This document shows positions 285 through 53,615 of a stretch of 64,000 nt of DNA, in pieces (positions within the stretch are counted from its first letter, which is position 1; each line of letters starts with the position of its first letter). The notes below the pieces were generated by a model. The model made no database searches. It saw nothing but the letters and a program-made list of their open reading frames with translations, and had not been told where the DNA came from. The stretch is from NCBI RefSeq assembly GCF_014860165.1, contig NZ_JACZKG010000049.1:1-64000 (forward strand), given 5' to 3'. Origin of the DNA: Devosia sp. Its GTDB lineage: Bacteria > Pseudomonadota > Alphaproteobacteria > Rhizobiales > Devosiaceae. A program made the translations under genes and the position numbers.

Positions 285-1178
285 GTGAAGAAGGAGCTTT
301 ACCAGGCCGTGACGGATACCATCATCAAGGACCTGGAGTTTGGCATTCGGACGTGGATGCAACCGTGGATCGTCGGTGGGGAAGGCGGCCAGCTCAATCG
401 GCCGCTGCGCGCCAATGGCGAAGCCTATCGTGGGATTAACGTGCTCGTGCTTTGGGGAGCTGCGGCGGAAAACGGTTTCTCGTCGCCAACGTGGATGAGT
501 TTCAAGCAAGCCCAGGACATAGGTGGAAATGTTAGAAAGGGCGAACGGGGAACCTTGGTGGTCTATGCCGGGACCCTGACCCGAACGAAAATGAACGAGC
601 AGACTGGGGAAGAGAGCGAGCGGGGGATTCCGTTCCTCAAGTCCTATTCGGTTTTCAATGCCGACCAGATCGAGGGATTGCCGGCAAAATACATCAAGCC
701 GCCGGTAGCGATGTTGAACCCCGCCCAGCGCATCGAGCAGGTGGACAAGTTTATCGCTGCCGCCGGTGCCGAAGTCAGAAATGACGGGGCAATGGCGTTC
801 TATAGCCCCGAACGTGACCTGGTGCAGATGCCAGCCTTCGACGCGTTCCGTGAGCCTGAAGGATACTATGCCACCCTATTGCACGAGCTGACCCACTGGA
901 CGCGCCACAAGTCGCGGTTGGATCGCAGTTTCGGCCGAGAGCGGTGGGGCGACGAAGGTTACGCCGCCGAGGAACTGGTGGCGGAACTGGGCGCCGCATT
1001 CCTTTGCGCGGATTTGCAGATCGCCCCCACGGTTCGCAAGGACCACGCAGCATATATCGGAAGCTGGTTGAAGGTGTTGAAAGACGATAAGCGAGCGATC
1101 TTCACGGCCGCGTCTTATGCCCAGAAGGCCGCTGACTATTTGCATGGGTTGCAACAGACCAAGGAGGCTACGGCCTAG
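285..1178 (+). CDS. ArdC-like antirestriction / zincin-like protein
   Basis: This 297-residue protein has the layout of ArdC (formerly DUF1738): an N-terminal ssDNA-binding-type domain (about residues 1-130, with the typical YRGINVLVLW and MSFKQAQ segments) and a C-terminal MPTase-PolyVal zincin domain. The metal-site motif HELTH is at residues 200-204, with a downstream glutamate-rich AEELVAELGAAF segment (about 228-239) giving the likely third ligand. ArdC proteins are typical of conjugative plasmids and integrative elements, where they protect incoming DNA from host restriction. The start is GTG, placed by the AGGAG just upstream. No partner gene follows directly. Its presence suggests this edge of the window is mobile DNA. 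Family assignment is confident; activity here is inferred. Confidence 0.85.
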   Translation: MKKELYQAVTDTIIKDLEFGIRTWMQPWIVGGEGGQLNRPLRANGEAYRGINVLVLWGAAAENGFSSPTWMSFKQAQDIGGNVRKGERGTLVVYAGTLTRTKMNEQTGEESERGIPFLKSYSVFNADQIEGLPAKYIKPPVAMLNPAQRIEQVDKFIAAAGAEVRNDGAMAFYSPERDLVQMPAFDAFREPEGYYATLLHELTHWTRHKSRLDRSFGRERWGDEGYAAEELVAELGAAFLCADLQIAPTVRKDHAAYIGSWLKVLKDDKRAIFTAASYAQKAADYLHGLQQTKEATA

Positions 1179-1197
1179 GCGGAGCCCTCCAATGGCC

Positions 1198-1231
1198 ACA
1201 AAAAATGCGGCGCCTGCCAAGGGCAGGCGCC
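1198..1231 (-). terminator. Rho-independent terminator for minus-strand genes
   Basis: A perfect 10-bp stem GGCGCCTGCC/GGCAGGCGCC (1209-1218 and 1222-1231) has a 3-nt loop. Read on the minus strand it is followed by CATTTTTTG, the expected U-run. It therefore ends transcription arriving from the small minus-strand genes at 1432-1930. On the plus strand no T-run follows. Confidence 0.7.
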
Positions 1232-1382
1232 GAAGGCTGGCAGAAGCCAGCGAATGCCAGCCGCTATCCGCTATCCGCTCGCTTTGGCGGCAGCTGCACA
1301 CAGCCTCGCGAAATCGCTCATGCGCCGAGGATCTGCACTTGCCCCGCAGATCAATATAGCTTCGACAGGGCAGAAAGAAACA

Positions 1383-1408
1383 GGCCCTGCAGTTGTCACT
1401 GCAAGGCC
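1383..1408 (-). terminator. Hairpin downstream of the DUF1508 gene
   Basis: The arms GGCC-C-TGCAGT and ACTGCA-A-GGCC pair with one mismatch around a TGTC loop. On the minus strand the stem is followed by CTGTTTCTTTCTG, a T-rich tail. It sits just past the stop of the 1432-1602 gene and may be a first, weaker terminator ahead of the strong one at 1198-1231. Confidence 0.45.
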
Positions 1409-1431
1409 CGTTCACGTTGAGCGTGGGCGCC

Positions 1432-1602
1432 TTAGGTCCGGTCGTAAACCGGCGCGAGTGGAGCTACCCTCTTCGTTGCGTCTACACCCGCCTGTGCGGA
1501 CTGCTTGGACGTGTAGACTTCAGAATGGCAGAGGGTTTCACCGTTGGCAGCCTTAAGACGCCAGAAGTACCCGCCTGCATTGGCGCGGAGGATTTCGAAC
1601 AT
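1432..1602 (-). CDS. DUF1508 (YegP-like) small protein
   Basis: This 56-residue protein begins MFEILRANAGGYFWRLKAA and continues with GETLCHSEVYTSKQSAQAG, the signature of a single DUF1508/YegP repeat (F-E-I, then FWRLKAANGE, then S-E-Y-SK). The family forms a small beta-rich fold and has no firmly known function. I chose the ATG at 1602 rather than an upstream in-frame start because a strong AAGGAGG lies 9 nt before it and the conserved domain begins exactly there. Two hairpins follow the stop. It may be co-transcribed with the 1742-1930 gene upstream. Confidence 0.75.
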   Translation of the reverse strand: MFEILRANAGGYFWRLKAANGETLCHSEVYTSKQSAQAGVDATKRVAPLAPVYDRT

Positions 1603-1741
1603 ATTGTTGGCCCTCCTTGGGCCGAAAGTGAGACCCGTCCGAAGCGCCGGGTCATTGATTTTTAAGGAGGGGCCGGCTAGGGTGATGTTGTTCAAGACAT
1701 GCCTAGCGGGCTTCGGCCCAGGTATTCGGAAATCGGCTGGT

Positions 1742-1930
1742 TTACGAGACCAGTCGGTTTTCCATCCATTTCACCTTCGGGGTCAGATACGGCCCCTTAG
1801 GCGGCAGTTCGTCGGGACTCGCCGGCGGGACTTGCGGAAACCGCGTCCCATCCTTGATTTCAGCGATACGGCCCTGATTGAGACCGAAGAACGCTGCAAT
1901 ATCGTGGTGGCGGTCGCCCCGCTCGATCAT
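1742..1930 (-). CDS. Small HTH-like hypothetical protein
   Basis: This 62-residue frame contains IERGDRHHDIAAFFGLNQGR followed by IAEI, resembling a helix-turn-helix module in short uncharacterised alphaproteobacterial proteins. The open frame continues upstream of the ATG for about 20 codons that also look coding (they include DERDVALIRG) but contain no usable start before a stop, so the true N-terminus is uncertain. The upstream part may belong to a start that has been lost. Function unknown; DNA binding is only suggested. Confidence 0.5.
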   Translation of the reverse strand: MIERGDRHHDIAAFFGLNQGRIAEIKDGTRFPQVPPASPDELPPKGPYLTPKVKWMENRLVS

Positions 1931-2163
1931 GCCCCGAATAAGCGCAACGTCGCGCTCGTCGTGGACGCATTCGCCTGAACTGGCGCTTGGTCATGGCACC
2001 AATGCCATTGGTCGACTACGTTATTGCCCACGAGGCTTGTCACGTTCTTCAGCACAATCATTCACGGCGATTTTGGCGGTCGTTAGAAACGATCATGCCG
2101 GACTACGAGGACCGCCTAAGAAGACTTGATCGAATGGGGCACCAGTACATTTGGTGATTTTGT

Positions 2164-3093
2164 ATGAGCGATATCAAATTATTCCGCACGGAAAGCGCTG
2201 CTGTCACTGAGCTTCGCGGCAGCGCGGTTGCACTAGAAAAGTCGCTACAAACCCTCATTGAACGAAACATGGAAGCGTTCCTGGGCGTGCGGTTTCTCGC
2301 ATCCGAGTTTCCTACGACGAACGGTGGGCGAATGGACTCGCTCGGCATCGACGAAAACGGTTCGCCAGTTATCGTCGAGTACAAGCGGGCGAGCAACGAG
2401 AACGTCATCAACCAAGGCTTGTTCTATCTTGACTGGCTCATGGACCACCGCCGTGATTTCGAATGGCTTGTTCTGGAGCGCTTTGGTGCCGAACAGGCAA
2501 AGGCGGTTGATTGGGGAACCCCTCGGCTGGTCTGCATAGCCGGCGACTTCACCAAGTACGATGCTCATGCGGTCAACCAGATGAATCGGAACATCGCGCT
2601 GGTTCGCTATCGCCGATTTGGCGAAGAACTGTTGCTTTTCGAACTGTTGACATCGGCATCGGAGCGCCCCACTCGCGAAATTCCCGCCAGCACCGACGCT
2701 CTAGGCGAGCCTGCGGCGGCGCGACCACGGTCCCGCCAGAAGACGGTTACGCAATATCTCGCGGACGCGGACCAGGACCTTGTGGACCTCTACGAGGCGA
2801 CGAAGGCGTACCTGTTAGCGCTGGGCGATGATGTCGAGCTGAAGACCCTGGACAACTACGTCGCCTTCCGCCGCCTAAAGAACTTCGCGTGCGTCGAGGT
2901 TAAACCGCAGATCAGGCACCTCAAGGTTTTCCTGAAGGTCGATCCAGACACCATCGAACTTGAGCCCGGTTTCACCCGCGACGTGCGCAACATCGGCCAT
3001 TTCGGCACTGGCGACCTCGAAATCATCATCACTGATGTCGCCAAGCTGGACAAAGCCAAGCCACTGATGGACCGCAGCTATGATGGCGCGTGA
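2164..3093 (+). CDS. DUF5655 protein with PD-(D/E)XK nuclease-like N-terminus
   Basis: This is a 309-residue protein. The N-terminal half has the arrangement GGRMDSLGIDENGSPVIVEY-K, giving D58, E72 and K74, the acidic-(x)n-E-x-K core of PD-(D/E)XK nucleases such as NucS/DUF91 relatives. The C-terminal region (about 205-309) matches DUF5655, with FRRLKNFACVEV, GHFGTGDLEI and a final D-RSYDGA. Such proteins are usually annotated hypothetical and are found beside restriction and mobile genes. Nothing in the sequence shows its substrate. It stands alone, between the ardC-like region and a tRNA remnant. The fold assignment is motif-based; nuclease activity is inferred. Confidence 0.7.
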   Translation: MSDIKLFRTESAAVTELRGSAVALEKSLQTLIERNMEAFLGVRFLASEFPTTNGGRMDSLGIDENGSPVIVEYKRASNENVINQGLFYLDWLMDHRRDFEWLVLERFGAEQAKAVDWGTPRLVCIAGDFTKYDAHAVNQMNRNIALVRYRRFGEELLLFELLTSASERPTREIPASTDALGEPAAARPRSRQKTVTQYLADADQDLVDLYEATKAYLLALGDDVELKTLDNYVAFRRLKNFACVEVKPQIRHLKVFLKVDPDTIELEPGFTRDVRNIGHFGTGDLEIIITDVAKLDKAKPLMDRSYDGA

Positions 3094-3160
3094 AATGCTG
3101 GGGGTCATGTCAATAGCCTGCAGCGCAGTGCACACAACCGACTGGCCGACCGTGGTATCA

Positions 3161-3275
3161 CCGGGCCTTAAACCGGGCCTCTACGAAAGGCGCCAACAGA
3201 TATACAGCTAACCTATTGAAAATACTGGTGGGCTCACCAGGTCTCGAAGCTGGAACCAGACCGATATAAGCGGTT
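3161..3275 (-). pseudogene. Degenerate tRNA(CAU) 3' half plus 3' flank, att-like
   Basis: Positions 3226-3275, read on the minus strand, match the 3' half (anticodon arm to CCA) of the intact tRNA at 53540-53615 with about six changes in 49 bases: the anticodon loop reads CTTATAT instead of CTCATAA, and the T-arm is damaged. The match continues into the tRNA 3' flank (3161-3225 against 53474-53539), starting at CCGGGCC-T/A-TAAACCGGGCC, at lower identity and with a one-base indel. It has no 5' half, so it cannot make a tRNA. Truncation in the anticodon arm is where tyrosine integrases often cross over. Confidence 0.7.
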
Positions 3276-3582
3276 TGGACGGACCTTAGAGGGAAAGATC
3301 GTCCGCGGCGCCGATGCCCCTATTTTTCCGCCGCCTGGCTGTGAATGCGAGACCGGGCGATACGTTCTGCAGGTACAGATCGATTTCCTCGCTAGCCTGG
3401 AGGACTAGTCAAAGGCACTACGTGTTAGTGTTGGCAGCTTTTGAGAACGTGCATATTTGCCGTCAGCGACGCGCCCCATTGCGGTGACTAAGCCGATCCA
3501 CTTGTGGACGTGCATTCAAAACGGCCACGGAAACAGCGACCAAATTGGTATAGCGTGGCCGGACGAAACGGAGGGGCAGAAC

Positions 3583-4284
3583 GTGGGCTTGGTTGACTAT
3601 CTATACTATGATGACAGGCGCCTGGACTCGTACATAGAGCAATTCGCGTCGCCGGTGACGTTTGATAAATTTGCGGAATGGACGGCTAGCCTCAGCCTGG
3701 CAGGTCCCAATGGGGAGGGGAAACAAACCGGCCATGCTAGGCCACTGACCAAGCACGAGAAGGTTGAGGAGGTAACGCAGTTCCTTGTGGACAAGGACTT
3801 AGTGCAGGGTCGGCCATGTGGCAGACAGCGCGAATTAGCGTTTGTGGATGACACGTTCAGTGCACGGCGCTTTTTCATTCCAAAGCATAATATCGCGATC
3901 TGGATGTCTAAGCCCGCGAAGGCGCCGACCGTGTCTCATAATGATTTCCAGGTCACGTATTTCATTGAGGACTACACCCAGCGGGGGAACCACGAAGGTC
4001 CGCCATCCCGGTATTCTGGATATAGCGGTCTATATCTGCTGTCTGAGGAGCTTGAGCGAGGGAACAAGGAACCTCTTCGAGACCTCTGGGATGAACCAGA
4101 AACCGGCAAGCTTGCCTTTATTCGCGATCCGATAGGGTTCTTCACAAAGGTCGGGGCACATGTGGGCCCGACCCAAAACATCAGGACAGTCTACAAATTC
4201 AGGGCTTCATCGACCGATTTGGATCATCCGGATGGCTACGTCTTGTGCGTGATCGGGTATCCACTTTGGATCGAGAGGGCTTAG
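3583..4284 (+). CDS. Uncharacterised protein, first gene of ATPase cluster
   Basis: This 233-residue protein is not assigned to a named family with confidence. It opens MGLVDYLYYDDRRLDSYIEQ; a start of this kind (short hydrophobic strand, D-x-x-R/K-hydrophobic, then an E-Q) recalls DUF6414-like proteins, but I cannot confirm that. No signal peptide, membrane segment or enzyme motif is visible. I chose GTG 3583 because a GGAGGGG lies 6 nt upstream and the recognisable part begins there; the frame is open back to a TTG at 3457. It is followed after 147 bp by a small gene and the zinc-hook ATPase, all on one strand, so a joint role is plausible. Confidence 0.55.
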   Translation: MGLVDYLYYDDRRLDSYIEQFASPVTFDKFAEWTASLSLAGPNGEGKQTGHARPLTKHEKVEEVTQFLVDKDLVQGRPCGRQRELAFVDDTFSARRFFIPKHNIAIWMSKPAKAPTVSHNDFQVTYFIEDYTQRGNHEGPPSRYSGYSGLYLLSEELERGNKEPLRDLWDEPETGKLAFIRDPIGFFTKVGAHVGPTQNIRTVYKFRASSTDLDHPDGYVLCVIGYPLWIERA

Positions 4285-4431
4285 ATTCTCAATCGTGTCA
4301 CGCGGATAATAGAACAAACGACGAGTGACCCGGTAAAGTTAGCCTGCAGGGCACTTTCTCTTGAGAAGGCTACACCGAAATGCACGAGCTTGTGACTTTG
4401 CTACGCGGCCTGAAGGAGGCTTAGGGCGAAC

Positions 4432-4647
4432 ATGAAAAGCGAAAACAGCAGCAACCTCCTTCATCTCGAGGAAGTCCGGAAGGCTGCTAAGGGGCCGCTG
4501 CACCAGAAGCTGGTCGACGCCTTTATCGAGATGGCTAAGGACCCTGAAAAAGGGGCGGTCGATTACGCCACCGGTCTGAGGGCCATCTTGGAGGAAACGC
4601 TGATAAAGGAGGAGATCCCTAGTGCGCTTCCTCGATCTGACAGTTAG
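4432..4647 (+). CDS. Small protein coupled to zinc-hook ATPase
   Basis: This 71-residue, charged, mostly helical protein has no recognised domain. AAGGAGG precedes the ATG by about 15 nt. Its 3' end overlaps the ATPase start by 26 nt in another frame, and the ATPase ribosome site (AAAGGAGGAG) lies inside this gene, so the two are translationally coupled. Small acidic partners upstream of SMC-like ATPases occur in several anti-phage systems, but no match can be claimed here. Function unknown; it is likely a subunit or regulator of the ATPase. Confidence 0.6.
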   Translation: MKSENSSNLLHLEEVRKAAKGPLHQKLVDAFIEMAKDPEKGAVDYATGLRAILEETLIKEEIPSALPRSDS

Positions 4648-7054
4648 GAACTTTCGCGGATTCGGGCCTTCCGCCGAAACCATAAAGTTCGGTGGCGATT
4701 TGATCTTGATGTTCGGCCCAAACGGCTTTGGTAAAACCTCGATTTCAGAAGCCGTCGAGTGGCTGTTTTACGGTGTCACAAAACGTCGCAAACGGGGAGA
4801 GCAATTCAGCCGTCCCGAGTATGCCAATTCGTACGCCAATGTTCATGGACGCACACCGGTCGAAGTCATAGCCACGGTGGAGATCGCAGGTACGCAGCAC
4901 GTGTTGAGCCGCCGCCTTGGTCCGGGGGAGACTTCGGTGACGTCTGTCGATGGCGTCGAGTCTTCCTTCGCCGTGCTGGGTCACAAGCCGATCGAGGCCG
5001 TGTATCCGGTCATAGCGCAGCACGGATTGCAGACCTTCATTCTGTCGAAGCCAAAAGATCGTCGCGATGCGATCTCGGCGGCGCTTGGGCTCGATGAGCT
5101 CACTGCATTCAAGGCGTCGCTCGAAGGGGCCCGGTCATCGTTTCAACGCACGCCACCTGCGAACGTCACCAGTGCAAGGAAGGAACTCTCGGGGCTGGCT
5201 CCGGGCCTGCTCACGGTTCTTGAGGCAAACGATGTTAGCAAAAGGTGGCAAAAACAGCCTGTCGAAGTCGATGCGACCCGCGATCCCGAGCAGTTGCTAG
5301 AGGCGGCAAGGGCGCTTTCTCATAGCACCGCCGAGAGCGTCGAGGATGTTTTGAAGGATCTGCGGACGACGCGAGAGCGCGCGAGCAAAGCACTGTTCGA
5401 TCTCGAAGGGTTCAGCCCGCTGGGCGGAAAGACCGCAAGGCTTGCTATCGCTCGTGCCGTGAGGCTCGAGAAGCTGCTCGACACTCTGTCGAGAGGCGCC
5501 AAAAACTATCTTGAGCAGGTTGCTGCGGGGTACAGCGCGGCGCTGCTGGACTTCTGGATCAAAGGCATTGAGCTAGCTCCGGTCGGCGAGAAATGTCCGA
5601 TGTGCGAATCCCAAACGCTGCGTGCGCATCATAGGGAGGAGTTGGCGGCCAGAATTAAAGCCGGCGCCGACCAGATCCAAACACGCAAAGATTTAGGGAG
5701 CGTCGTTAAGTCGATCGCCGCGCTGGCATCGCAGCTGGAAACGGACCTTAGGGCCCTTGCGATCCCCTCCGATTTCTCCATGGTGGAAGACGAACGCCTT
5801 CGCGAAATTCTCGGCCACGGACATGGTGCGGTTGATGCTTTCTCCGTGGCGCACGCCGACTTTAGGCGCGAACTCGCGGGAGCAATGTCCGCGCTATTGT
5901 CAGTGAAAAAGCATGCATCGGAATTCCTGGAAAAACTCGATGCCGGCGGCAGCTTTTCAGCCGTGCTGTCCGCGCACGAGATTGCCCGGAACACCATCCG
6001 ACCTGCAGCCTCGCGTAGTGGCCGCAGCTCTGGATCATATGGGGCGGCCTTCGACACGCTGGATGCGCTCATCGCTGAGAAGGTATCCAGCGACAAGGAG
6101 GTTGCGAAGATCGATGCGGTCGGCAAGGCGCTTCGCAAATTAGATCAGGTCGATTTGCTAGCGCGTTATGCAACGACGCTCGCTGAATCCCTTGAGCTGA
6201 TAAGGAGCGTTGAGAAGGAGATTCAGGGAAAGCACAACGTGCTGCTCAACACACGAGGTCAGGAGGTGAAGGACTTTTACGATCGGCTGAATGTGGGCGC
6301 CGATGTCGGCTTTTCCGGAATGGAGCCCGGCAATGACAGCATGCAGCTACACGCGACCAGCTTTGGCCGTAAGATGTCGGCAGCAGCGAATTTGTCGGAA
6401 TGCCAGCTCAACTGCCTCGGGCTTGCCACCTACCTGATGAGAGCCTGCAGCCCTGGAACGCCGTTTGGCTTCGTCCTCCTCGATGATCCGGTACAATCCA
6501 TGGATGACGGCCACGCAGAATCCTTTATCGCAGACATTGTTCCGCACCTGCTCGATGATCACGGAAAACAGGTGATCGTTCTCTCCCACACCCAAAAGGT
6601 GATCGAGCGGTTGAGGGATTTGAACCAGCATCGGGCGACCCGCGTCTACCACCTCGACAACTATGAGAAAGACGGCCCAACGCTAACCGAGCAGGTCGGG
6701 CTGCAGATGCTGATCTCAGAGATTAAGGGCGGAATGGTCGGTAACGAGAAAAATCGGGAATACGCGATCGACCGTATCCGTGTGCTCGGCGAGGAGGTAA
6801 TTCGCGCGATCTACCTGAAGCAAATGAGATCGCCGGCGCCAGCGAAATACGACAGGGCTAACCCGAGCGATCTCCTGGACTTGTTTCGAACGATCACCGG
6901 AACGTCGCAACAGGAGTATGTTGGGTTGCGCGACACGATGAGGTTCGCAGACCCGGCACATCATACGCAGGTTGGGTACGCCGTGCCCGTGAAGACGAAC
7001 ATTCAACCGCACCTCGATCGCCTCGGGGGCCTGATAAAGACATACGGCATTTAG
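4622..7054 (+). CDS. SbcC/Rad50-like zinc-hook AAA/ABC ATPase
   Basis: This is an 810-residue SMC-type ATPase. Walker A is GPNGFGKTS (32-40); coiled-coil arms flank a CPMC motif (325-328), the half-site of a Rad50-type zinc hook; the ABC signature LSECQ (591-595), Walker B FVLLDD (617-622), D-loop and H-loop LSHTQ (654-658) follow. About 140 residues after the ATPase end with LRDTMRFADPAHHTQ, a C-terminal domain not found in plain SbcC. RloC anticodon nucleases also carry a zinc hook and extra C-terminal domain, but I do not see their R-E-H set clearly. The start is GTG 4622 with a strong upstream AAAGGAGGAG. There is no SbcD/Mre11 nuclease next door, which argues for a dedicated defence-type ATPase rather than general repair. 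Confidence 0.8.
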   Translation: MRFLDLTVRNFRGFGPSAETIKFGGDLILMFGPNGFGKTSISEAVEWLFYGVTKRRKRGEQFSRPEYANSYANVHGRTPVEVIATVEIAGTQHVLSRRLGPGETSVTSVDGVESSFAVLGHKPIEAVYPVIAQHGLQTFILSKPKDRRDAISAALGLDELTAFKASLEGARSSFQRTPPANVTSARKELSGLAPGLLTVLEANDVSKRWQKQPVEVDATRDPEQLLEAARALSHSTAESVEDVLKDLRTTRERASKALFDLEGFSPLGGKTARLAIARAVRLEKLLDTLSRGAKNYLEQVAAGYSAALLDFWIKGIELAPVGEKCPMCESQTLRAHHREELAARIKAGADQIQTRKDLGSVVKSIAALASQLETDLRALAIPSDFSMVEDERLREILGHGHGAVDAFSVAHADFRRELAGAMSALLSVKKHASEFLEKLDAGGSFSAVLSAHEIARNTIRPAASRSGRSSGSYGAAFDTLDALIAEKVSSDKEVAKIDAVGKALRKLDQVDLLARYATTLAESLELIRSVEKEIQGKHNVLLNTRGQEVKDFYDRLNVGADVGFSGMEPGNDSMQLHATSFGRKMSAAANLSECQLNCLGLATYLMRACSPGTPFGFVLLDDPVQSMDDGHAESFIADIVPHLLDDHGKQVIVLSHTQKVIERLRDLNQHRATRVYHLDNYEKDGPTLTEQVGLQMLISEIKGGMVGNEKNREYAIDRIRVLGEEVIRAIYLKQMRSPAPAKYDRANPSDLLDLFRTITGTSQQEYVGLRDTMRFADPAHHTQVGYAVPVKTNIQPHLDRLGGLIKTYGI

Positions 7055-7382
7055 TTCGTACAAAGCGCCAGCACGATAGGTTCGGTGCAGGTGGAGGCTG
7101 CGCCTCCAGCCCTGGCGGGGAGAGAGAAGTCGTCCCTCCGAGCAGGGCTAGGGAATTGTGATAACGTCCCCGGTCGTGGTTCAGCGGCGAAACGCTGATG
7201 CAGGGTTGCGAGGCGCGGCGAAGGCGCTGTTAGGTTCTGGCACGCGAAGTTGGCGTTACGTCAGGATTACTAATTGGACAAAAGCTCAGCCATGCCTTGG
7301 ATTGGCGAAAAGGGGCTGACGGCAGCTAACGGACTTAACCGCCTAAAAGCGGACGGACCGCTGTCGGCCCCAAACAACGCAA
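7055..7382. other. Intergenic with a hairpin after the ATPase gene
   Basis: There is no supported gene. A hairpin TGGAGGC-TGC-GCCTCCA (7092-7108) lies about 40 nt after the ATPase stop and lacks a T-run, so it is at best a weak terminator. The remainder is GC-rich with no recognised repeat. It separates the defence cluster from the core-like genes that follow. Confidence 0.45.
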
Positions 7383-7940
7383 TCAGGCTGGCATGGAGCT
7401 CAGATGCGATAGCAGCTCGGCCACATTGTGGGCACTATACTTCTTGAGTAGCCGCGCTCGGTAGCTCTCCACCGTGCGCGGCGAGATATCGAGCATGCGG
7501 GCAATCTCCTTGGAAGTCCGCCCCTCGCCCAGATGCATGACGATCTGCCGTTCCCGACCCGAGAGCTTGAGCACGTTCCGTGTCTCCGACAGATCGGCGA
7601 AGCTCCACACTGCGCGCCTGAGCGGATCGTCATCGCGGGTCAGCGAGTGACCGCGCACCCTGCACCAAAACAGAGTGCCGTCCCGGCGCGCCATTATACG
7701 CTCGTCCGAATAGCGGTTGTCGCGCCTGAGCGGTTCCACCCCGACGTCGCGAATTCGCTCGAATTCCTCGCGGGAGGGGTAAAGCATGGCAAAAGACTGT
7801 TCGAGAAGGTCGGCCACCGCATAGCCGAACATCTCCGCAAAGGTTGGATTGCAGCCCTTGATCACGCGGCTTTCCGTCACCACCAGCCCAATCGGCGCAT
7901 GTTCGAAAGCAAGAGCGCTGAAATCGTCCGGCAGGGTCAT
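7383..7940 (-). CDS. PAS-LuxR transcriptional regulator
   Basis: This 185-residue regulator has an N-terminal PAS domain (about 10-120: FEHAPIGLVV, NPTFAEMFGY, RRDGTLFWCRVRG) and a C-terminal LuxR/GerE helix-turn-helix (about 125-180: LSGRERQIVMHLGEGRTSKE then IARMLDISPRTVESYRARLL). It has no receiver domain, so it probably senses a ligand or redox state through the PAS domain. It is divergent from the ABC uptake operon beginning at 8166, across a 225-bp gap, and is the obvious candidate regulator of that operon. The ligand is not evident. Confidence 0.85.
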   Translation of the reverse strand: MTLPDDFSALAFEHAPIGLVVTESRVIKGCNPTFAEMFGYAVADLLEQSFAMLYPSREEFERIRDVGVEPLRRDNRYSDERIMARRDGTLFWCRVRGHSLTRDDDPLRRAVWSFADLSETRNVLKLSGRERQIVMHLGEGRTSKEIARMLDISPRTVESYRARLLKKYSAHNVAELLSHLSSMPA

Positions 7941-8165
7941 ATGGTGTGTTTCTACGGTATTGCCCGGTTGGGCGCGGCACAGGGATAATAGCGGTCAATT
8001 CGCGCTGCGCCAGAGAGATAAGCCCGACAAGGGCATGCGGGGTCGCGATTGATTGGGAGGGGGAGCATGGGCCGTGCAGTGCCCGGCAGGCGCTCCCCGG
8101 ACGTAGAGTTTTCGGCACGGAGCGGCGCGCTTGCGCAGTTCCGGCCGGTCCAGGGAGGACAACAA

Positions 8166-9356
8166 ATGAAGACCTTGCTCGCCGCTTTGGCAGTTTCCAC
8201 CGCCTTTACTGGCGCCGCCGCCGCGCAGGATGCGGCCCGCATCGCGCTGCTGCACGGCCTGTCGGGGTCGCCGCTCGAAGCCTATTCCAAGCAGACCCAT
8301 ACCGGCTTCGAACTGGGCCTCGAATACGCCACGGGCGGCACAATGGAAGTCAAGGGCATCCCGATCGAGCTGATCATCAAGGACACCCAGTTCAAGCCCG
8401 ACATCGCCCGCGCCCTCCTGGCCGAGGCTTATGGTAATGATGACGCGCTGATCGCGGTGGGCGACACATCCTCGGGCGTGGCGCTCTCCATGCTGCCGGT
8501 GGCCGCGGAATATGAACGCATCCTCCTGGTCGAACCGGCCGTGGCCGATGGCCTTACGGGTCCCGATTCCAACCGCTATGTGTTCAAGACCTCGCGCAAT
8601 TCCTCGATGGACATGCAGGCCCAGGCGCTGGCGCTGGCGCCCGACGAGAACCTCTATGTCGCCACCCTGGCGCAGGACTATGCTTTTGGCCGCGATGGCG
8701 TTGCGGCCTTCAAGACTGCGCTCGAGGGCACCGGCGCGCATCTGGTGGCCGAAGAATACGTGCCGCAGCAGACGACCGATTTCACTGCCACGATCGAACG
8801 CTTGTTCAATGCGCTCAAGGACCAGCCGGGCCGCAAGGTCATCATGATCTACGTGGCCGGCATCGACGCCATGACGCCGCTTGCTTCGGCCGATCCGGGG
8901 CGCTTCGAGATCGAGCTTTCCACCGGCGGCAATATCCTGCCCGCGCTCGCCGCCTATAAGCAGGTGCCGGGCATGGAAGGGGCGATCTACTACTACTACG
9001 AAGCGCCGGACAATGAGGTGAATGACTGGCTGGTCGAAGAGCACATGGCGCGCTTCGGCACCCCGCCCGATTTCTTCACCGCTGGCGGCATGGCTTCGGC
9101 CATGGCGGTGGTGAAGGCACTCGAAACCGCGCCCGACTGGGAGACCGAGACGCTGATCCAGACCATGGAAGGCATGAGTTTCGAGACCCCCAAGGGGACC
9201 ATGACCTTCCGACCGGAAGACCATCAGGCGCTCCAGGCCATGTACCACTTCAAGATCCGCGTCGAAGACGGCGTCGACTGGGCCATCCCCGAATTGGTGC
9301 GGGTCATCCAGCCGGACGAGATGGATATCCCGATCGGCCGCAACAACCAGGAATAA
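8166..9356 (+). CDS. HAAT-type ABC transporter substrate-binding protein
   Basis: This 396-residue periplasmic binding protein starts with a signal peptide (MKTLLAALAVSTAFTGAAAA, cleavage after the AAAA-Q region). The mature protein begins ARIALLHGLSGSPLEAYSKQ, typical of type I (LivK/AmiC-like) binding proteins. The ATG at 8166 has GGAGGA 9 nt upstream, and the frame upstream of it does not look coding. It is the first gene of an uptake operon with two ATPases, two permeases and a hydrolase. The substrate cannot be read from the sequence; amino acids, amides or small aromatics are typical of the family. A strong stem-loop follows the stop. Confidence 0.87.
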   Translation: MKTLLAALAVSTAFTGAAAAQDAARIALLHGLSGSPLEAYSKQTHTGFELGLEYATGGTMEVKGIPIELIIKDTQFKPDIARALLAEAYGNDDALIAVGDTSSGVALSMLPVAAEYERILLVEPAVADGLTGPDSNRYVFKTSRNSSMDMQAQALALAPDENLYVATLAQDYAFGRDGVAAFKTALEGTGAHLVAEEYVPQQTTDFTATIERLFNALKDQPGRKVIMIYVAGIDAMTPLASADPGRFEIELSTGGNILPALAAYKQVPGMEGAIYYYYEAPDNEVNDWLVEEHMARFGTPPDFFTAGGMASAMAVVKALETAPDWETETLIQTMEGMSFETPKGTMTFRPEDHQALQAMYHFKIRVEDGVDWAIPELVRVIQPDEMDIPIGRNNQE

Positions 9357-9382
9357 GCCGCGCCTCAAGCGGTCTTGACGGT

Positions 9383-53539: not shown

Positions 53540-53615
53540 TGGTGGGCCCACCAGGACTCGAACCTGGAACCAGACCGTTATGAGCGGTCGGCTCTAACCA
53601 TTGAGCTATAGGCCC
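53540..53615 (-). tRNA. tRNA with CAU anticodon, probably tRNA-Ile2
   Basis: All stems pair: acceptor GGGCCTA/TGGGCCC (one G-U), D-arm GCTC/GAGC, anticodon stem GACCG/CGGTC with loop CTCATAA, T-arm CCAGG/CCTGG with TTCGAGT loop, discriminator A and encoded CCA; 76 nt. The anticodon is CAU. The 8-base D-loop (AATGGTTA) resembles bacterial tRNA-Ile2, whose C34 is changed to lysidine, more than elongator tRNA-Met, but the sequence cannot decide with certainty. It is the partner of the degenerate copy at 3161-3275. Confidence 0.92.

Follow-up and report, generated by a model that had tools for sequence, protein, structure and literature searches.

Organization of the Locus

We analyzed a Rad50-like ABC ATPase gene of Devosia sp. 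(assembly GCF_014860165.1) and the small gene that overlaps its start. The window, by which we mean the whole stretch under analysis, comprises 64,000 nucleotides (positions 1 to 64,000 of the forward strand of contig NZ_JACZKG010000049.1). The initial annotation, made from the sequence alone, placed near the left end a three-gene cluster with a zinc-hook ATPase and regarded it as a candidate defence system. The three open reading frames (ORFs), designated P0001, P0002 and P0003, the CPMC hook and the extra C-terminal region are all present at the described places:

3583-4284, + strand: P0001, frame of 233 residues with a GTG start, inside an ORF opening at 3457
4432-4647, + strand: P0002, small protein of 71 residues, first gene of the conserved pair
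4622-7054, + strand: P0003, Rad50-like ABC ATPase of 810 residues with a zinc hook and a C-terminal domain, GTG start
4715-4741, + strand: Walker A motif GPNGFGKTS of P0003, residues 32-40, with 7 of 9 residues invariant in eight sequences
5594-5605, + strand: zinc hook CPMC of P0003, residues 325-328, with C325, P326 and C328 invariant in all eight sequences
6395-6589, + strand: signature LSECQ, Walker B LLDDP, D-loop and switch LSH of P0003, residues 592-656
6671-7051, + strand: predicted HEPN-like domain of P0003, residues 684-810, with the candidate triad R720, E724 and H781

The reading frames of P0002 and P0003 share 26 nucleotides. P0001, which is part of an open frame of 279 codons, ends 147 nucleotides before P0002. 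Thus, the three genes form no more than a loose operon-like run. A sigma-70 scan of positions 3100-7400 found no promoter. Neither P0001 nor P0002 matched a profile in Pfam, NCBIfam, PADLOC or PHROGs.

P0003 matches the Pfam family AAA_23 at 7.1e-13, and about 150 of its residues lie C-terminal to the ATPase core. Invariant residues were read from an alignment of eight ATPase sequences, which omits L001 (split gene), L005 (short C-terminus), L036, L038, L039 and L040 (L numbers denote individual loci). Two of the five residues of LSECQ, four of the five of LLDDP and one of the three of LSH are invariant in this alignment; the invariant columns of residues 592-656 are S592, Q595, L620, D621, D622, P623, D628 and L654. 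In an AlphaFold2 (AF2) model of the full-length protein, helices flank the hook on both sides with low confidence. The predicted template modelling score (pTM) of this model was 0.38, and it was left out of the fold searches.

Conservation of the P0002-P0003 Pair

The conserved unit at the locus is two genes, P0002 and P0003. The pair co-occurs in Alpha- and Betaproteobacteria and in Bacteroidota. All ten relative loci examined hold the start of the ATPase gene, and in nine of them a small ORF overlaps this start, by 29 nucleotides in seven loci, by 26 in L035 and by 14 in L033. The small frame of L039 is disrupted. Taken as mechanical ORFs, the small genes encode 61-112 residues; counted from the start aligned with the P0002 relatives, they encode about 61-66. 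Using leave-one-out hidden Markov models, we showed that the overlapping small ORF is the best match in each of the nine loci tested, with E values from 5e-10 to 3e-29; P0002 itself was recovered at E 5e-10. These loci were the window (its first 12,000 bases), the Bradyrhizobium and Nitrosospira plasmids, Dyadobacter, Hyphomicrobiales, two Acetobacteraceae, Phenylobacterium and Sphingomonas; the test omitted L036, L039, the distantly related L004 and L005, and L038, which nearly duplicates L037. Recovery in all nine loci exceeds chance. The homologues L004 and L005, with an identity of 27-29%, also carry an overlapping ORF of 65-66 residues.

We also determined the proportions of synonymous (pS) and nonsynonymous (pN) differences between small ORFs. 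Outside the overlap, pS was 0.66 and pN 0.13 for L037 and L040, and the small ORFs of L037 and L038 were identical. For L001 and L032, pS was 0.75 and pN 0.19, which is near saturation. These values indicate that the small ORF is under purifying selection, as judged from one informative pair and a second one near saturation. On the Bradyrhizobium plasmid (L001, 6001-8432), the ATPase lies in two frames and the small gene is intact.

The initial annotation made joint conservation of the first two genes with the ATPase a test of the cluster. P0002 is conserved with the ATPase, but P0001 has no relative. None was found in 13 ATPase-bearing loci (L036 has no upstream DNA, and L039 has about 1 kilobase), in 296 and 298 other genomes (overlapping samples), or in plasmids, phages and viral contigs. 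Because P0001 was found nowhere else, we rejected the three-gene cluster. P0001 is probably not part of the conserved pair.

Predicted Fold of the C-Terminal Domain

The initial annotation had proposed that the C-terminal region of the ATPase be searched for a nuclease fold. We built an AF2 model of P0003 residues 664-810 from six sequences. The mean predicted local distance difference test score (pLDDT) of the model is 78.6. It stays under 50 in the initial 21 residues and is 64 for model residues 21-30; for most of model residues 31-147, blocks of ten residues score 84-93. The top Foldseek match was an HEPN protein with a probability of 0.99 (E 0.14). In VIA-align, the best match was 2hsb, an HEPN protein (Z 12.6, root-mean-square deviation (rmsd) 3.0, 117 aligned residues); the sacsin HEPN domain (Z 11.2, rmsd 3.4, 121 aligned) and MntA-HpeT (Z 10.4, rmsd 3.4, 118 aligned) were also matched. 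Among the 30 listed matches with Z of at least 8, 11 are titled HEPN or HpeT and four more Csm6, and the remaining ones are nucleotidyltransferases, toxin-antitoxin or uncharacterised proteins, HepS and AbiA. Vinculin and catenin reach Z 7.9. No match in the list is titled PrrC or RloC, which says nothing either way. A library of viral folds gave no useful match (best E 0.45). The C-terminal domain of P0003 is predicted to have an HEPN-like fold.

Nine positions of the domain are invariant in the eight sequences, and the only charged residues among them are R720, E724 and H781, each identical in 8 of 8. All eight sequences also read E724-x3-[RK]728, in agreement with Ex3[KR], a motif given for HEPN domains (PMC3710099). 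In the modelled structure, the tail of P0003 would present three invariant catalytic-type residues on the HEPN-like fold.

Distribution of the ATPase

ATPases of the P0003 type are rare. Of the 397 genomes sampled from the order, 26 show a match at E 0.001, that of the window included, with at most two candidates scored per genome. Beyond the window, three of these matches cover most of P0003 (L004, L005 and L006, 23-29% identity), and the others are partial. In the class sample, a profile of two sequences matched 1 of 385 genomes at 1e-20, its own genome alone. The own genome holds one match to P0003. A scan of genome contigs revealed nine relatives with a best-segment identity of 42-67%, from Hyphomicrobiales, Acetobacteraceae, Phenylobacterium, Sphingomonas, Dyadobacter (Bacteroidota) and Bryobacterales; full-length relatives have an identity of 41-49%. 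Five plasmid records match; those from Bradyrhizobium, where the ATPase is split into two frames, and from Nitrosospira align over 85-100% of P0003. There were two partial matches in phages (25%) and one in viral contigs (26%).

The SbcC model scored P0003 at 22.1 bits, with a cut-off of 478.5 bits, and Rad50 models scored it at 11-20 bits against cut-offs of 454-1087. These scores indicate that P0003 is not a housekeeping repair protein; the rarity of the ATPase and the single match in its own genome agree with this, and on this point the initial annotation holds.

Mobile Setting

The P0002-P0003 pair sits in mobile DNA. The following features mark its surroundings in the window:

285-1178: ArdC gene, Pfam ArdcN at 1.1e-39
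3226-3274, - strand: remnant of the 3' half of a tRNA-Met gene, matching nucleotides 28-76 of tRNA-Met from the same genome at 90% over 49 nucleotides, E 1.9e-12
7383: edge, by genus comparison, between strain-specific DNA on the left and DNA common to some genus members on the right

Both the ArdC neighbour and the tRNA remnant had been noted initially, and both were confirmed, though ARAGORN and Rfam list no tRNA at 3226-3274. The comparison covered 30 tRNA loci of 44 matches, and the intact tRNA-Met gene lies at 53540-53615. To the right of 7383, 5 of 12 other genus members match, and the fetched regions align only from 7382-7390 on. To the left of the edge, four of those five have a different sequence in common. 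Third-position guanine-cytosine content is 0.62-0.72 in the five genes on the left versus 0.79-0.83 in three transporter genes on the right. The scanned neighbour genes of relatives were hand-picked. Those of mobile or defence type are integrases (L033, L035 and L037), ArdC and IS110 (L033), TraG and a T2SSE ATPase (L040), HamC2 (L037) and restriction endonucleases (L004 and L005).

Several further observations concern these surroundings. A DUF5655 gene (2164-3093, + strand) adjoins ArdC; it has a weak NucS-like stretch and matches PDC-S18, a PADLOC candidate for phage defence, at 7e-146. The tRNA-Met remnant divides the left end of the window into a part with ArdC and PDC-S18 and a part with P0001-P0003. 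In L005, a BsuBI/PstI restriction endonuclease gene (2994-4097, - strand) lies upstream of the small-protein and ATPase pair. The Phenylobacterium loci L037 and L038 share a 94% identical stretch at about 794-9373 that includes the pair together with genes for an integrase and HamC2.

Distant Hook ATPases with Small ORFs

In four distant hook-bearing ATPases of the same order, an ORF of 64-91 residues sits at the gene start or overlaps it:

L100, 1108-1383: small ORF
L103, 1391-1585: small ORF
L104, 1778-1999: small ORF
L105, reverse strand: small ORF

These four, out of eight distant ATPases fetched, were chosen as a small ORF had already been seen, and they give no frequency. By eye, their tails read R-x3-E...H. 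A further subfamily (L099, L101, L102 and L106) carries about 70 extra N-terminal residues on a Pro/Ala-rich linker, at the place where the small protein would be. It is possible, if doubtful, that Rad50-like ABC-HEPN genes share a general design, so far undescribed, with a small partner encoded across the gene start. Together with the P0003 family, these ATPases would then make up a class of two-component sensor-ribonucleases distinct from RloC and Lamassu. Comparison of the P0002 relatives with the small ORFs of L100 and L103-L105 gave no significant homology. Comparison of the small proteins with the N-terminal stretch of L099, L101, L102 and L106 was not significant either: in 16 of 100 column shuffles the score was as high as the observed one.

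Interpretation

On balance, we incline to the view that P0002 and P0003 form a mobile two-gene defence-type module of RloC-like kind, in which a Rad50-like sensor is fused to a ribonuclease (RNase) and P0002 acts as the regulator. Two Rad50-like heads of P0003, joined via the coiled coils and the zinc hook, would sense an abnormal DNA state arising from a phage, a plasmid or DNA damage. A change in the heads would free the C-terminal HEPN RNase with its residues R720, E724 and H781, which would then cut tRNA or other RNA and halt growth. P0002 would bind P0003 and either keep the RNase off or couple sensing to it. What the analysis shows is the conservation of the pair, selection on the small gene, the ATPase and hook motifs, a predicted HEPN-like fold with three invariant residues of catalytic type, and the mobile setting. 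We infer the RNase activity, its target and trigger, the role of P0002 and the function in defence. From the initial proposal of a defence system, the mobile DNA and the effector-like C-terminal domain stand, and the three-gene form does not.

A number of results weigh against this view. The pLDDT falls to 69-70 at model residues 111-130, the blocks with H780 and H781. All Foldseek E-values exceed 0.1. From their arrangement alone, helical bundles can attain a Z as high as 13, and the Z of 12.6 stays below this value. The classical HEPN motif Rx4-6H is absent; residue 770, which lies 9-10 residues before H780/H781, is K in three of the eight sequences. Non-catalytic HEPN domains have been proposed (PMC3710099). 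The RloC triad R-x3-E-x36-52-H is required for the anticodon nuclease (PMC2610378), whereas the gap between E724 and H781 in P0003 is 56 residues. Profiles of the C-terminal domain compared with 13 AAA_13 (RloC-type) proteins gave no significant relation (hhalign probability 0.7%). The neighbour tested in L032 is a histidinol dehydrogenase, and the one tested in L039 matches nothing. Finally, LmuB is the best PADLOC match (for P0003 at 4e-26, with no cut-off given and with residues 132-665 as the best stretch), followed by mad3 or a second LmuB.

The last result raises the possibility that the pair is a relative of Lamassu (ABC-3C), with P0003 as the LmuB-type sensor, P0002 as an LmuC-like middle component, and the effector located elsewhere or represented by the fused C-terminal domain. 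LmuB was the best match for 7 of 7 proteins tested, that is, for the window protein and 6 of 6 relatives. The Lamassu, DdmABC and ABC-3C systems likewise have a hook-bearing SMC-like ATPase with a small partner, and LmuB is often equipped with a zinc hook and accompanied by a small middle component (PMC10586767). Nevertheless, we regard this as unlikely. No LmuA effector gene was matched among the five window genes scanned, all to the left of 7383. The best LmuB model (611 positions) ends at residue 665 and leaves the fused C-terminal domain of P0003 uncovered. The E-to-Q form of Walker B is described as general for LmuB (PMC10586767), but P0003 has LLDDP, DD and not DQ, with D621 and D622 invariant in 8 of 8 sequences. 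P0002 and two of its relatives match no PADLOC model. Judged by these features, the P0003 module is not Lamassu as defined.

The pair may also be a DNA-maintenance or repair factor serving plasmids and integrative elements, its HEPN-like domain being a binding module only. Plasmid carriage, integrase and conjugation gene neighbours and the Rad50/SMC-type head fit such a role, and the RNase is a predicted one. We consider it rather improbable: copies also sit on contigs of 2.2 and 4.8 megabases (L033 and L037), and pure binding would not require that R720, E724 and H781 be the sole invariant charged residues of the domain. Still less probable, to the point of being very unlikely, is a three-gene system in which P0001 is a fast-evolving effector, antitoxin or sensor. 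P0001 does lie on the same strand 147 nucleotides upstream, and its 279-codon open frame seems unlikely to arise by chance; the absence of relatives from every search listed above speaks against its membership.

Comparison with Known Systems

The two-gene module that we favour shares with RloC and PrrC a coiled-coil-interrupted, Rad50-like ABC ATPase with a CxxC hook (here CPMC), and its length is similar to that of RloC (PMC2610378). It also resembles RloC in a C-terminal domain, here predicted, of HEPN type with the order R-x3-E...H (HEPN assignment, PMC3710099). Two rloC genes are reported to be linked to ArdC (PMC2610378). A global alignment including Walker B sets the R-x3-E of P0003 over the R-x3-E/D of RloC, with low confidence there. 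Because the domain is not linked to RloC by sequence profiles, we confine the likeness to architecture, predicted fold and motif order and take neither homology nor an identity as RloC as proven.

P0003 also differs from RloC. It scores 25.9 bits with Pfam AAA_13 (PF13166), below the cut-off of 36 bits; among its relatives, L002 scores 42.2 bits, and L004 and L005 score 20.2. The P0003 family has a conserved overlapping small partner, whereas none resembling P0002 was seen by eye in 15 AAA_13-type loci. Four of these 15 (L058, L061, L064 and L065) list an ORF of 45-150 residues ending at most 60 nucleotides from the gene start; the one in L058 (56 residues) overlaps the start, and one in L061 reads by eye as a helix-turn-helix antitoxin. 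The RloC comparison omits L068, and the C-terminal profile used 13 of the 15 proteins (without L058 and L063). The RloC-type protein L055 has no sequence relative in the PDB at E 0.001. From the CxC ABC ATPase system PbeABCD (PMC10853773), the module differs in that no HKD nuclease-helicase or DndE-like match was found among the five window genes scanned.

A literature search found no description of the pair, though an account may exist in work on ABC ATPase classification or RloC regulation. The account of RloC, in the available text of PMC2610378, names no dedicated partner protein. There is little understanding of how zinc-hook ATPases couple a signal from DNA to the cleavage of RNA; the compact conserved pair offers a handle on whether a small protein controls the presumed RNase toxicity. 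Most likely, the pair is an anti-phage or anti-plasmid device, related to known ones yet distinct from them. P0002-P0003 combines an RloC-like design with a Lamassu-like ATPase profile and a conserved small partner.

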